Virus record (IMG/VR): IMGVR_UViG_3300026292_000011
Coordinates: 1 to 38,569 of that record
Strand: one strand, 5' to 3'
DNA from: a virus
DNA length: 38,569 bases
The position numbers were made by a program, and so were the translations under genes. Shown here piece after piece: positions 1 through 38,569 of the stretch. The notes beneath the pieces were generated by a model. The model had not been told where the DNA came from, did not search any database, and worked only from the letters and a program-made list of their open reading frames with translations. Every line of letters starts with the position of its first letter. The stretch's first letter is position 1.

Positions 1-138
1 TGTCATTAAAATAACATGGCATGATCTTAGACATTATGTTGCTAGTAAATTAATTGTTACTAATGGCTTTGGTGAAGAAGATCTAAAAAAGATCTCTAAT
101 TTTTTAGGCCATGAAGAAATATCTACTACTCAAAGAGT
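1..138. repeat. Terminal direct repeat, left copy (circular closure)
   Basis: Bases 1-138 match 38432-38569 except at base 97 (T here, C at 38528). The mismatch is the third base of a Ser codon (TCT/TCC) in the integrase, so it is silent. The repeat lies inside a coding gene and joins its two halves in frame, so it is best read as the overlap of a circular or permuted assembly and not as a physical end of the virion DNA. Confidence 0.95.
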
Positions 139-208
139 GTATGCTCACCTTATTGCCTTACAAGGACACCAGGATGAGAAGACACAGGAGATGGTAGCAA
201 GTTTATAA
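1..208 (+). CDS. int: Tyrosine integrase, C-terminal part (continues from 37371-38569)
   Basis: This is the 3' part of the integrase that begins at 37371; the reading frame uses bases 2-208 and stops at TAA 206-208. It carries the end of the catalytic domain: the HxLRH box (bases 20-34), the LGH motif, and the nucleophilic tyrosine in VYAH, encoded at 140-142. Only the left copy reaches that tyrosine, because the right window end stops two codons earlier. Joined over the 138-base overlap, the protein is 422 aa, normal for a phage tyrosine recombinase. An inverted repeat and a strong terminator follow at once. Confidence 0.93.
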   Translation, partial: VIKITWHDLRHYVASKLIVTNGFGEEDLKKISNFLGHEEISTTQRVYAHLIALQGHQDEKTQEMVASL

Positions 209-1656: not shown

Positions 1657-2340
1657 TTAAGTTATTGTTAATTTTTTGGTTTCGTATGTATCTTCCAAAT
1701 CCTTCATTAAATCTGGATATTTTTTTTCTACTGCCTTTAAGAAATCACCATTGTTATTCCATAGTGCTTTTAGAGCTGGCATTACCTCTGCTGATTGTAT
1801 TTCAACTTTTAATTCTTCAATGCTTTCCGTGGTAACTTTTTGATCTTTTGTTGCTTTTTTTGGATCTAAAACTTTAGGCTTAATATTTTTTTTCCCAGGT
1901 ACATGGCCGTCAGTATCATTGCCTGTAGCAATGTTAAACATCAGCGAAATAATATATCTTTTTAAATAAGTAATATCAGATCCGAAGCCTTGCATGTCGT
2001 TGCCTTTACCCAGGCTATGCTCTTCTGGAAATTTAACTTTTGTAGCTGGTGATAGAGATCCATTTCGATGAAGGACCTGACATATTAAATAATCACCTTG
2101 TATTGTTGCAAATGGTGTTATGCCACAGTCTGGTGCAACTTCTCTAATTGCATCCACAATATCATCATAAGTGGCATATTCGCCTGTATAGCTGGAACCA
2201 CTTTTTTTTACTCTTCTCATTTTACCTTGAAATGTAACAAGGGCATCGGCTAGTTCTGGATCCATGCGATCTTTGAAATCAAACATTTCAATTTGGTTTG
2301 GATCACCAATAACTAACTCTGTACTATATTCATTTTCCAT
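1657..2340 (-). CDS. erf: ERF-family single-strand annealing protein, 227 aa
   Basis: ERF proteins (P22 Erf type) coat ssDNA and anneal complementary strands, driving recombination and genome circularisation or concatemer repair. Two family hallmarks are visible: YATYDDIVDAIR at about residues 55-66 and GSDITYLKRYIISL... ATGNDTDG at about 120-145, the core that binds DNA in this family. The C-terminal 80 residues are charged and variable, as is usual. It is translated after the 79-aa gene with an 11-base overlap and lies two genes downstream of a PD-(D/E)XK nuclease, forming an exonuclease-annealase pair of the lambda-Red kind. With no phage polymerase in the genome, this pair is the main phage contribution to DNA metabolism. 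Confidence 0.88.
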   Translation of the reverse strand: MENEYSTELVIGDPNQIEMFDFKDRMDPELADALVTFQGKMRRVKKSGSSYTGEYATYDDIVDAIREVAPDCGITPFATIQGDYLICQVLHRNGSLSPATKVKFPEEHSLGKGNDMQGFGSDITYLKRYIISLMFNIATGNDTDGHVPGKKNIKPKVLDPKKATKDQKVTTESIEELKVEIQSAEVMPALKALWNNNGDFLKAVEKKYPDLMKDLEDTYETKKLTIT

Positions 2341-7139: not shown

Positions 7140-7256
7140 ATGCTAGAGACAATTCAAGACAAGATATTAAATCTATTTCATAACTTAACACCAAGAGGAC
7201 TACAGATCCTTTTAGGTAGCACATTAGCTGGTGCAATAATATTGCTGATCATCTAA
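7140..7256 (+). CDS. Small membrane protein before terminase, 38 aa
   Basis: The frame reads MLETIQDKILNLFHNLTPRGLQILLGSTLAGAIILLII. It has an amphipathic N-terminus and one hydrophobic C-terminal segment ending at the stop. The ribosome site AAGGA is well placed, and the stop overlaps the start of the next gene by one base (TAATG). The size and shape would fit a small holin-like or membrane-targeting peptide, but nothing else supports lysis here. Confidence 0.55.
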   Translation: MLETIQDKILNLFHNLTPRGLQILLGSTLAGAIILLII

Positions 7257-7648
7257 TGGCACGAGTTAACAAGAAGACATTCCAAAAGATATTAGACCGT
7301 ATAGTAGACGGTGAGAGCCTGACACAGATCTGCAAGGATGACGATCTACCATCTGATAGAACAGTCTTAAGACATGTACAAGATAGCGAAGAAGACTTTG
7401 AAGCATACATGAAGGCACGAGCCTTACAAGCTGAGAAGATCCATGACACTATGATGGACATGTGGAACGAAAGCTATCCAATAGATGTTAAAGAGAAACA
7501 CACAGAGATATTGAGAAGAGATAAGACAAGCTATTGGCTAGACAAGAGACGAACACAATTACAACCAAGAGGATCTTTGCGTAACAAAGTAGAAGACAAG
7601 AAAGAGTCTGGTGAGATAACGATTAGATGGGGAGATGACAATGGGTAA
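7256..7648 (+). CDS. terS: Terminase small subunit, 130 aa
   Basis: The start of the chain (TFQKILDRIVDGESLTQICKDDDLPSDRTVLRHVQDSEEDFEAYMKARALQAEKIHDTMMDM) is the HTH of small-terminase-like phage proteins, where a Lxx(I)C..(D)LPS..TV..(W/H) helix pair is followed by a long helix for ring assembly. It should recognise the packaging start on phage DNA and regulate the large subunit. Coupled by TAATG to the membrane mini-gene and by an 8-base overlap to the 48-aa gene. The large subunit follows 366 bases later, after a structured non-coding stretch that may be its binding site. Confidence 0.75.
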   Translation: MARVNKKTFQKILDRIVDGESLTQICKDDDLPSDRTVLRHVQDSEEDFEAYMKARALQAEKIHDTMMDMWNESYPIDVKEKHTEILRRDKTSYWLDKRRTQLQPRGSLRNKVEDKKESGEITIRWGDDNG

Positions 7649-7787: not shown

Positions 7788-8013
7788 GGCTGATACACCG
7801 TTGTAGTATGCATGGCCCTGTCGTTGTTCATACGCACATGCGATTGGCGACAGCTCCAGGGGTACGGCTCCCTTAGTTATTGGCTGAGTTCTGCGGTTAA
7901 ATCAATCGCATCAACACATACATCAACATATATACGAAAAACCTGGCACCTACCCCTAAAAAAAGTCGCCTGGGTTCTAGTAGCGTATTACACCGATCAA
8001 GGAGTCACACACA
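7786..8013. ncRNA. GC-richer, hairpin-dense non-coding stretch before terL
   Basis: This 228-base gap is richer in G+C than its surroundings. Hairpin copy 2 (AGGGC 7786-7790 with GCCCT 7815-7819) is followed by CTGTCG/CGACAG (7818-7823/7848-7853) and AGGGG/TCCCT (7858-7862/7869-7873). Longer pairs also exist: GGCGAC 7846-7851 with GTCGCC 7965-7970, and AGGGGTA 7858-7864 with TACCCCT 7951-7957. The 23-base attP-type double motif lies inside (7906-7928) next to TTCTGCGGT (7889-7897). It could be a structured RNA, a packaging start site, or both. A 69-codon open frame from ATG 7812 runs through it but lacks a ribosome site and protein-like character. Confidence 0.5.
7906..7928. repeat. Remote copy of the attP arm-type motif
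   Basis: TCGCATCAACA, three bases (the third T), then ACATCAACA. The same 23-base pattern occurs at 37067-37089 and 37228-37250 beside the attachment core. ACCGCAGAA, which accompanies the attP copies, is present here in reverse orientation at 7889-7897. This site is about 9.1 kb from attP on the circle. Confidence 0.75.
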
Positions 8014-9309
8014 TTGCCTGAGATAGTTATTCCATATACTCCCAGAGAATTGCAAAATGAATTGCATACTAATCTGGATAAGCATAGATGGGCCGTCATA
8101 GTCTGCCACAGAAGATTTGGCAAAACAGTTATGGCTATAAATCATTTGCTTCGAGCAAGTATTCTTTGCGATAGGCCTAATCCTAGATTTGCCTATGTAG
8201 CTCCAACATATAGACAGGCGAAATCTGTGGCCTGGGACTATATAAAACAATTTACGAATAAGATCCCTGGAATAAAATATAATGAAACGGAATTGCGATG
8301 CGATTTGCCCTCTGGTGCCAGGATAACTTTATTAGGATCAGAAAACCCAGATAGCTTAAGAGGTATTTATTTAGATGGATGTGTTATCGATGAGGTAGCG
8401 GATATGCCTGAGAGTATCTTTCCAGAAGTTATCAGACCAGCTTTATCAGATAGAAAAGGGTTCTGTTATTTTATTGGGACTCCTAAAGGTCATAATATGT
8501 TTTTTGATCTATACGAAAATGCACAACAGCAAGAGGAATGGTACTCAGTAGTTTATAAGGCGAGTGAGACAGAAATATTAGATGAGGAAGAATTAGAACA
8601 AGCTTCTCAGACTATGTCCTCTGATCAGTATGCCCAGGAGTTTGAATGTAGCTGGGTAGCAAATATACCTGGTGCCATATACGGCCAGGAGCTAGAACAA
8701 TTGCAAGAGGATGGCATGATCACAACGGTGCCTTATGATCCATCCCAGCGAGTAGATACATGGTGGGATCTCGGACTAAATGATTCGACTGCTATTTGGT
8801 TTACACAAACATCCAGAGGTGGAGCTGTATCGGTAATAGATTATTATGAGGTCCGCAACGAAGGCCTTCCGCATTTTGTACATGTATTAGAACAGAAGGA
8901 TTATTTATACGGTACCCATAATGCACCACATGATATTGAGGTCCGTGAATTAGGGACAGGAAGATCTAGGAGAGAAGTCGCCTATGATCTAGGAATAAAT
9001 TTTCGAGTGGTTCCGAAACTTCCCCTGGAAGATGGGATCCATGCCGTGAAGATGTTACTGCCGAGATGTACCTTCGATGTAAAGAATTGTAAGGATGGTG
9101 TAGAAGCCCTCCGACATTATCATAGAGCATACAATGAACGGACTAGAGCTTTCAGAGCTACTCCTGTTCACGATTGGACCAGCCACGGTGCCGATGCTTT
9201 TCGGTATTTGGCAATAGGTATGAAACAACAAAAGATGGAAAAAATTCCGCAAGCTTATGCAGATAATAAGTGGGAGCCATTAAAAGATAGGAGACAAGCC
9301 ATTGGCTAA
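8014..9309 (+). CDS. terL: Terminase large subunit, 431 aa
   Basis: The ATP-driven packaging motor and headful or site-specific nuclease. Start: TTG 8014 with AAGGAG nine bases upstream. ATPase centre: CHRRFGKT (about 31-38, Walker A in the terminase-specific form), VIDEV (124-128, Walker B), GTPKG (155-159, coupling motif III). Nuclease domain: D252 in WWDLGLNDSTAIW, D307 in PHDIEV, and D394 in HGADAFRY, the usual RNase-H-like acidic set. The length is normal. It overlaps the next gene by 8 bases and starts the late structural operon. Confidence 0.95.
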   Translation: MPEIVIPYTPRELQNELHTNLDKHRWAVIVCHRRFGKTVMAINHLLRASILCDRPNPRFAYVAPTYRQAKSVAWDYIKQFTNKIPGIKYNETELRCDLPSGARITLLGSENPDSLRGIYLDGCVIDEVADMPESIFPEVIRPALSDRKGFCYFIGTPKGHNMFFDLYENAQQQEEWYSVVYKASETEILDEEELEQASQTMSSDQYAQEFECSWVANIPGAIYGQELEQLQEDGMITTVPYDPSQRVDTWWDLGLNDSTAIWFTQTSRGGAVSVIDYYEVRNEGLPHFVHVLEQKDYLYGTHNAPHDIEVRELGTGRSRREVAYDLGINFRVVPKLPLEDGIHAVKMLLPRCTFDVKNCKDGVEALRHYHRAYNERTRAFRATPVHDWTSHGADAFRYLAIGMKQQKMEKIPQAYADNKWEPLKDRRQAIG

Positions 9310-36947: not shown

Positions 36948-37022
36948 TGGTACTCCCTAGCAGAATCGAACTGCTCTTTTTAGGTTGAAAACCTAATGTC
37001 CTAACCGATAGACGAAGGGAGC
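36948..37022 (-). tRNA. tRNA-Glu (anticodon TTC)
   Basis: Read on the minus strand: acceptor GCTCCCT pairs with AGGGAGT (one G-T), then A73 and an encoded CCA (36950-36948). D arm with GGTTAGGAC, anticodon stem TTAGG/CCTAA with loop TTTTCAA giving anticodon TTC, and T arm with TTCGATT. All parts of a functional tRNA-Glu are present. It lies beside the attachment site. GAA is frequent in this AT-rich phage, so it may support late translation, or it may have been picked up from host DNA next to attB. Confidence 0.93.
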
Positions 37023-37037
37023 AACATATGCATTTTA

Positions 37038-37066
37038 TATATACTGTTGATGCGAGCTAATGTCCA
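37038..37066 (-). promoter_or_regulatory. Promoter of tRNA-Glu, inside the arm-type repeats
   Basis: On the minus strand: TGGACA (37066-37061), 17 bases, TATATA (37043-37038). Its spacer contains one arm of the 11-bp inverted repeat (37045-37055), and the other arm (37067-37077) abuts the -35, so a protein bound to the repeats would block it. Confidence 0.5.
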
Positions 37067-37089
37067 TCGCATCAACACCTACATCAACA
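37045..37089. repeat. Left arm-type sites of attP
   Basis: TGTTGATGCGA (37045-37055) and its reverse complement TCGCATCAACA (37067-37077) stand 11 bases apart; ACATCAACA (37081-37089) follows to complete the 23-base double motif. Repeats of this kind beside an attachment core are expected to be integrase arm-binding sites. Confidence 0.65.
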
Positions 37090-37168
37090 ATCCTACATGA
37101 ATTTATATGTTCTATATAAATTAAAATGGATCTATACAGCGATTTATAAATCTGTATAAATCAAGTCT

Positions 37169-37196
37169 AAGGGTTCGATTCCCCTAGGGACTGCCA
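37169..37196 (+). other. attP core: 3' end of a host tRNA
   Basis: GGGTTCGATTCCC is a T arm, followed by CCTAGGGACTGCCA, i.e. an acceptor strand (AGGGACT), discriminator G and CCA. No 5' part of a tRNA is near, so this is the piece that rebuilds the host tRNA gene on integration. The matching 5' acceptor would be AGTCCCT or GGTCCCT. I cannot name the isotype. Confidence 0.75.
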
Positions 37197-37201
37197 ATCC
37201 T

Positions 37202-37266
37202 ACCGCAGAAAACTGCCATTCTTCTTCTCGCATCAACAAATACATCAACAAAACATACCGCAGAAA
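37202..37266. repeat. Right arm-type sites of attP
   Basis: ACCGCAGAA occurs at 37202-37210 and 37257-37265, on both sides of the double motif TCGCATCAACA (37228-37238), three bases, ACATCAACA (37242-37250). Together with the left sites they flank the core, as integrase and accessory sites do. The CGCA-GAAA-TGCG hairpin (37259-37270) with a T-rich stretch after it could also end rightward transcription. Confidence 0.6.
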
Positions 37267-37370: not shown

Positions 37371-38569
37371 ATGAATTACAAAGTAGTACAAAGACAATCA
37401 AGAAAAGTTAAAGGCTGGAAGTCATGGTCTATAGTTTTTGATGACAAGAATCTTAAAAAAGAAAATAAGCATATTTATTATGACACAAGAGATGAAGCTA
37501 GAGAAAAAGCTCAAATTATTACTAAGGCAAAATTAAATAATAGACATGTGCCAAAAGAGAACAATCAGTCTGTAAAGGCTGTTGTTGAGTTATGGAAAGA
37601 GACTATTATCAATAGTGATCTGTCCAGGGACACTATCCATAAACGAGTTCTCTTTGGTGATTTGATGTCTGATTATCCAATTGGCAAATTGATTGTTAAT
37701 GATGTTAAGCCAAAAGATATTGAAGCTTTTTATAGATCTGTAAAAGAAGACAGAGGTATAACTAGAAAAACTATTTTTGGTTATCACAGTCAGATGAAAG
37801 ATTTCTTTCTTTGGTGCATAAGAAATGAATATGCTAGTACGACACCAATACATGAATCAATGATTACAAAAATTTTTCCAAAAAATGATTCAAAGGTATT
37901 TAATGTTGAGAGTATCTCAGATGAAAATATTGCAAAAATACAAAATGCATTATTTGATGACACTTTTACTCAGACAATGTTTTTGACTGCAATAAAAACA
38001 GGCATGAGATTAGGTGAGCAACTTGCATTGACTTGGGCTGATATTGATTTTGAAAACAAGAGCATTAGCATTAATAAAAATATTGGTGAAGGAGAGGGTA
38101 CTAAAGCTGATAAATTAAAAGGCCGTAATTCTGGCTTGGGTAGAGTCATACCTATGAATGTTGAGCTTACTGTTGCATTACAAGAATGGAAAATGGAAAC
38201 CAAGTATAGCAAACCTTCAGATATTGTTTTCACTAGAAACGGACCAAAGTATGAAAATTGGAACAGGAAATTGTGGAAGCAAAGAAACATGAAAGATTAT
38301 CAAGAAGTGGACCATAGAGGTACGATTGGCCATAACTCATCTTTCTATCATAGTGGCCAACCAGCTACATATCAAACAGCTAGATATATTTTAGAGCAAG
38401 CCATCAAGACTGCAAATATGCATGGAGAGGGTGTCATTAAAATAACATGGCATGATCTTAGACATTATGTTGCTAGTAAATTAATTGTTACTAATGGCTT
38501 TGGTGAAGAAGATCTAAAAAAGATCTCCAATTTTTTAGGCCATGAAGAAATATCTACTACTCAAAGAGT
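37371..38569 (+). CDS. int: Tyrosine integrase, N-terminal and catalytic part (continues at 1-208)
   Basis: Site-specific recombinase for integration at the tRNA 3' end. GAGGAGG precedes ATG 37371. An arm-binding N-terminus (about 1-60), a SAM-like core-binding domain (about 66-160, VKAVVELWKETI... TIFGYHSQMKDFFLWCI), then the catalytic domain: R213 in TGMRLGEQLALTW, H361 and R364 in HDLRH, H391 in LGH. The catalytic Tyr 401 is encoded past the window end, in the copy at bases 140-142. Joined length is 422 aa. The frame is intact across the junction, so the gene looks functional. Confidence 0.93.
   Translation, partial: MNYKVVQRQSRKVKGWKSWSIVFDDKNLKKENKHIYYDTRDEAREKAQIITKAKLNNRHVPKENNQSVKAVVELWKETIINSDLSRDTIHKRVLFGDLMSDYPIGKLIVNDVKPKDIEAFYRSVKEDRGITRKTIFGYHSQMKDFFLWCIRNEYASTTPIHESMITKIFPKNDSKVFNVESISDENIAKIQNALFDDTFTQTMFLTAIKTGMRLGEQLALTWADIDFENKSISINKNIGEGEGTKADKLKGRNSGLGRVIPMNVELTVALQEWKMETKYSKPSDIVFTRNGPKYENWNRKLWKQRNMKDYQEVDHRGTIGHNSSFYHSGQPATYQTARYILEQAIKTANMHGEGVIKITWHDLRHYVASKLIVTNGFGEEDLKKISNFLGHEEISTTQR
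38432..38569. repeat. Terminal direct repeat, right copy (circular closure)
   Basis: Right copy of the 138-base end overlap, identical to 1-138 except C at 38528. Closing the circle here restores the integrase frame. Confidence 0.95.

Follow-up and report, generated by a model that had tools for sequence, protein, structure and literature searches.

A candidate second integrase site beside the large terminase gene of a marine phage, with dif sites in the corresponding position of relatives that lack a detected integrase

Why does a double motif that flanks the attachment site of a tyrosine integrase recur directly in front of the large terminase gene, and what would it be used for there? We addressed this question in a window of 38,569 nucleotides (the whole stretch of DNA analysed; IMG/VR record IMGVR_UViG_3300026292_000011), which is a circular phage contig with an end overlap of 138 bp (positions 1 to 138 repeat 38432 to 38569) that contains one mismatch. 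The mismatch (T/C, position 97 against 38528) indicates that the assembly merged two variants or contains an error there. The window encodes an Sf6-like small terminase (TerS), a large terminase (TerL), a T7-like portal, an ERF recombinase, and a tyrosine integrase (Int). TerL is mostly 54 to 59% identical to that of HTVC010P-type pelagiphages and, judged by its sequence, the window phage is a marine phage related to them through TerL. Among isolated phages, none had a window-like integrase of more than ~30% identity, and a search of bacterial genomes for integrase relatives that might reveal the host gave a single weak, uninformative match. The genes that matter here are the following:

1657 to 2340, minus strand: ERF-family recombinase (PF04404)
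7256 to 7648, plus strand: small terminase, Sf6-like (PF20901)
8014 to 9309, plus strand: large terminase, TTG start (PF03237)
36948 to 37022, minus strand: tRNA-Glu(TTC) gene, between the last late gene and attP
37371 to 38569, plus strand: tyrosine integrase (PF00589, phrog_1), continuing over the contig joint to 208; 422 aa in total
1 to 208, plus strand: 3′ end of the integrase gene past the circular joint

A sequence-only reading of this DNA had counted three occurrences of a 23-bp motif and no more, two of them around attP and one in front of terL, and this count was borne out. The motif TCGCATCAACA-NNT-ACATCAACA lies at 7906 to 7928, 37067 to 37089, and 37228 to 37250, exact and on the plus strand in every case, and the pair is confined to attP and terL within the window. 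There was no additional match in the window when up to 3 mismatches were allowed, and the motif was absent from 100 dinucleotide shuffles; a chance expectation of 0.00 rules out a chance repeat as its source. The copies at 37067 and 37228 sit on either side of a tRNA T-arm core, like arm-type integrase sites, and a single half-motif in inverted orientation, missed in the earlier reading, completes the set at attP:

37045 to 37055, minus strand: single inverted arm half-motif TCGCATCAACA
37067 to 37089, plus strand: arm pair, on the opposite side of the core from int
37167 to 37187, plus strand: attP core CTAAGGG-TTCGATT-CCCCTAG (tRNA T-arm), overlap at 37174 to 37180
37228 to 37250, plus strand: arm pair, in the interval between core and int

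A companion 9-mer, ACCGCAGAA, had been reported at all three places as well. It is indeed present three times in the window (7889 to 7897 on the minus strand, 37202 to 37210 and 37257 to 37265 on the plus strand; 0.15 expected), but it is not conserved: the matching terL-side segment reads TCTGTGGGAATAAA or similar in relatives. The 9-mer is therefore probably incidental and was dropped as a functional element.

In front of terL, the arm pair is accompanied by three further elements:

7818 to 7853, plus strand: conserved dyad CTGTCG...CGACAG, directly upstream of the site
7857 to 7876, plus strand: core-type inverted repeat CAGGGG-TACGGCT-CCCTTAG, overlap at 7863 to 7869
7906 to 7928, plus strand: arm-type pair with units CATCAACA at 7909 to 7916 and 7921 to 7928, 12-bp period
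7948 to 7970, plus strand: conserved C-rich box on the terL side of the site, a possible packaging signal

The core-like inverted repeat had been overlooked in the sequence-only reading. It lies ~53 bp from the terL-side arm pair and has a spacer of 7 nt; its arms contain one G-T mismatch in the window and are perfect in a relative (L015). Elsewhere in the window, its arm pattern is found only at the attP core (37167 to 37187), and in 8 of 8 phages a genome-wide search gave two occurrences of the respective core arm pattern and no more, one at attP and the other at terL. The terL core arms match those of the phage's own attP core, with AGGG/CCC[CT]T in the window group, ACGGG/CCCGT in G054, a close variant in G015, and ATCGG/CCGAT in G010, in which a tRNA anticodon arm forms the attP core. 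The 7-nt overlap, in contrast, differs between terL and the own attP in all eight, as exemplified by TACGGCT versus TTCGATT in the window, GATACTG versus TTCGAGC in G054, and TTTATAA versus CTGTTAA in G010. Overlaps of this integrase (int) type vary freely, even among close relatives, and do not correspond to the T-loop or anticodon loop of the att core. The geometry is fixed: in all 27 int-type loci measured, the spacer is 7 nt and the core and arm pair are 51.5 to 55.5 bp apart (centre to centre), and this range is the same in clades with the arm pair downstream of the core and in those with the pair upstream.

Judged from these sequence features, the copy at terL is a complete recombination-type site with core, arm pair, fixed geometry, and private overlap. 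Like lambda-type att sites, it has a core inverted repeat (its 7-bp overlap lies within the 6 to 8 bp of such sites), an arm pair with a period of about one helical turn, and an arm motif in common with the own attP (8 of 8 phages). Unlike them, it is located beside terL, has its arms on one side, and has an overlap that matches neither attP nor the tRNA core. An attachment site has an overlap identical to the integration target; since the terL overlap differs from that of attP (8 of 8), we did not file the site as a lysogeny attachment site. In having a single self-matching copy per genome outside attP, it resembles loxP.

Does the site follow the integrase when the integrase changes? Close relatives keep a pair with a 12-bp period at the same position before terL, with other sequences (CATCGCAA, TGACTCCA, GCAACAC, GTGACGCT, and ATCATCAATT). 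On contigs that include an integrase as well, the terL motif also flanks the attP of the phage's own integrase: GTGACGCT in G004, GCAACAC in G003, GTGACTCC in G002 and G005, TCTTCTCT in G015, and TTGTGACC in G054; in G010, the comparison of the terL pair with attP is GTGGACAA against CTGGACAA. Arm motif and core arms thus differ between phages, yet match the own attP in 8 of 8, the set being all phages with both sites visible. Outside this set are G012 (36.7-kb contig with an int-like ORF and the terL site, but no matching attP found), G020 (contig ends before attP), and G013. When each terL pair was scored against every int region, 2 of 40,320 reassignments reached the observed score, a tie that arises because G002 and G005 have the same motif. 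The search of relatives proposed in the sequence-only reading has thus found the pair at both places and covarying; relatives with such an integrase and no copy at terL were also looked for, and the idea survived. A fossil of an old integration or rearrangement, for which only the likeness to attL or attR half-sites speaks, would not track the current integrase and is contradicted by the covariation in eight phages, and mere coincidence is at odds with both the chance expectation and the permutation result; we find either scarcely credible.

That the integrase uses the site before terL, as had been suggested, is strongly supported by this covariation of motif and attP across the different integrases of the relatives, and it is from the covariation that we infer Int binding there. 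In a comparison of G004 with G005, none of 130 flank positions (core included) differs, 6 of 16 arm positions are changed, and the changed positions agree in each phage with its own attP motif. The integrases of these two phages are 84% identical outside the N-terminal domain and 70% inside; those of G002 and G005, which have the same motif, are 87 to 88% identical in both parts. Although few sequences are involved, this points to the arm-binding domain of the integrase as the reader of the motif. Alternatively, another phage protein (repressor, excisionase, or small terminase) could read the motif at attP and terL, and a common regulator of int and the late genes is conceivable. However, the core arms covary along with the arm pair, the pairs flank the attP core as integrase arm sites do, and the N-terminal domain of the integrase diverges where the motif changes (in the few sequences at hand), and we therefore consider another reader very improbable.

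A dif site takes this position, 135 to 361 bp upstream of terL, in relatives for which no integrase was detected. It consists of a XerC arm, six bases, and the XerD arm TTATGTTAAAT, one per stretch examined; this canonical layout was found in L027, L029, L047, L048, L050, L056, L057, L063, L066, L071, and others, and is absent from the window. In some dif phages the site is upstream of a small gene and not directly before terL. Some terL loci have neither type of site, often with an early contig end or with genes occupying the region. A scan of 50 records for PF00589 gave no match in dif-type records, contigs of 31 to 37 kb included, and was positive for int-type contigs of 31 to 37 kb; the exception, the possibly incomplete 30-kb contig G026, has an int-type site and no integrase match. 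A wider scan turned up dif in at least 120 stretches of viral contigs, of which the 80 listed ones were analysed. Among these, 12 belong to the TerL family of the window, all 12 with the C-rich box nearby. Of 45 other listed contigs with unusual dif centres, 44 had no integrase match. Of these listed contigs, 27 have a Terminase_6N gene, and in 21 of the 27 dif is upstream of that gene at a distance of no more than 1.9 kb (4.8 expected); for contigs of at least 12 kb among the matches listed the ratio was 10 of 15 (1.05 expected). Outside the TerL family of the window, L164, L176, L181, L183, L199, L241, and others have a dif with unusual centre a few hundred bases upstream of terL.

The presence of dif raises the possibility of integration, in which the dif phages would enter host dif via XerCD and the int-type site would be a second or older attachment site with another host target. 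Filamentous phages integrate at dif through XerCD (PMC7307601), and two dif centres of some family members, TATACA and TTTATC, are also found in certain bacterial chromosomes, so that integration into host dif is possible for those phages. In beta- and gammaproteobacteria, most chromosomal dif sites have the centre TGTATA, and two chromosomes of one cell are kept apart by their different centres (PMC2731167); TGTATA was found in 0 of the 12 TerL-family dif sites among the matches listed. Furthermore, the free variation of the int-type overlaps and their lack of T- or anticodon-loop sequences argue against integration, as does the separate attP with a tRNA core in the same genomes, and we regard this explanation as improbable. 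Pelagibacter ubique reportedly has no dif/Xer (PMC2731167).

The sequence-only reading had suggested that the site serves to block packaging or to control late transcription. In that case, Int would bind the core and arm pair without recombining, either as a regulator or roadblock that silences terL and the late genes during lysogenisation or by blocking terminase at a nearby packaging site. The site is intergenic, directly before terL and beside the conserved C-rich box, and a bind-only site would likewise have a mismatched overlap. However, the region before terL has no match to a sigma-70-like promoter (which is weak evidence), a repressor site needs no exact 7-bp spacer of free sequence, the site can precede a small gene instead of terL in dif phages, and dif, whose known use is recombination, occupies the same place in integrase-less phages. 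Binding without recombination is therefore unlikely in our view, and a complete recombination site for which dif substitutes in relatives is better explained by recombination, its probable purpose, than by control of packaging or transcription. A structured RNA before terL (no Rfam match) and an overlap with a promoter (no sigma-70 match) were dropped as readings.

The best explanation, to which we assign a probability of roughly 0.6, is that the terL site is a private lox-like site that lets Int (or host XerCD) close terminally redundant genomes into circles or resolve multimers. The complete site, together with dif at the same place in relatives, points to a genome that recombines with itself. 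In our model, the region before terL would be a second complete Int site with core, 7-bp overlap, and one arm pair about five helical turns away, and because the overlap is private, Int should recombine the site only with its own copies and not with attP or the host tRNA gene. Two copies would meet in a terminally redundant linear genome or in multimers, and Int would circularise the incoming genome or resolve multimers to monomers, like Cre at loxP near pac of P1. Two paired terL sites would provide four core and four arm half-sites, sufficient for one Int tetramer, and the divergence of the overlap from attP would keep the DNA between attP and the terL site from being lost. Integrase-less relatives, which have a XerCD dif in its place, would rely on the XerCD of the host instead. 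It is from this design that we infer strand exchange, terminal redundancy, and benefit. Sf6-like TerS and ERF proteins are those of headful phages with terminally redundant genomes, and ERF-family recombinases are typical of phages that circularise by recombination; the site may therefore be present at both ends of the packaged genome, and by analogy the two proteins suggest terminal redundancy of window-type phages. An excess of contig ends (10 of 23, 1.7 expected, in a test devised post hoc) lies upstream of terL, in the region where the site adjoins terS and terL; this is weak support because assembly breaks could yield the same pattern. The records of HTVC034P and HTVC010P, two isolates of the wider group, contain no terminal repeats. 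What counts against the model is that a lambda-type site with a single arm pair normally depends on a different kind of partner or on accessory proteins. The cases of G012 and G026, and the two dif centres that are also found in chromosomes, speak against it as well.

In P1, Cre-loxP near pac is responsible for the cyclisation of terminally redundant DNA. A role in dimer resolution is also described for it (PMC3556154). The likeness to our model is one self-matching tyrosine recombinase site per genome near the packaging region; however, Cre lacks an arm-binding domain and loxP lacks arm sites, whereas here the recombinase would be the lysogeny integrase with a separate attP, and recombination at terL is proposed from sequence alone. 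XerCD-dif and the plasmid multimer-resolution sites cer and psi are matched by the canonical XerC-N6-XerD dif of the integrase-less relatives, with mostly non-chromosomal centres, but the site of the window belongs to a phage integrase and not to Xer. For phiCbK-like phages, the authors propose multimer resolution by the tyrosine recombinase gp143, likewise a phage enzyme and in a phage not known as temperate, although its target site is unnamed and there is no integrase-attP system (PMC3556154). The literature searched, in which subscription journals were thinly covered, contained no report of a second integrase site beside the terminase and no description of phage dif sites adjoining it; the function proposed here is Cre-lox-like and would be carried out beside the terminase by a lambda-type integrase or host XerCD. 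We lean, by a little, toward a more general model: one integrase acts on two kinds of site whose overlaps are incompatible with each other, on attP in lysogeny and on a one-armed, self-only terL site in circularisation or resolution; the second site is evolutionarily interchangeable with a private dif; and self-recombination sites linked to the terminase form a common module of tailed phages that has gone unrecognised. If true, a widespread group of marine tailed phages would have P1-like genome circularisation or resolution, with its own lysogeny integrase or the host's chromosome-dimer resolvase as the enzyme. This would account for the motif pairs before terL and may flag the packaging region of uncultured phages. 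The arm domain of the integrase and two separate target sites would coevolve, and the private overlaps would be a readable code that separates the two jobs of one recombinase.

The C-rich box (ACCCC...ACCCCCC, with GCGC nearby and then an AT-rich element) is kept upstream of terL in int-type phages, dif-type phages, and several lytic pelagiphages (HTVC010P, HTVC034P, Lederberg, and HTVC204P) and may be a packaging signal. HTVC010P-type pelagiphages thus share the box and a related TerL with the window phage; in contrast to it, the isolates examined have no integrase (a weak HTVC028P match excepted) and no clear int-type or dif site there. In the distant relatives L051, L059, L077, L085, and L088, TGTCAG...CGCGCGCACGAG upstream of terL is the counterpart of the dyad at 7818 to 7853. 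Not far upstream of the C-rich box, HTVC204P (L135) has the inverted repeat TGATAA-CGTTTAT-TTATCA and Lederberg (L132) has GATAA-TGTTTTC-TTATC, both with a 7-nt spacer, and these short repeats could be the site of an unknown recombinase or due to chance. The match in HTVC028P (L160; 8992 to 9585 of MW273921.1) is a diverged protein of the Phage_integrase family (PF00589, E 1.2e-9).
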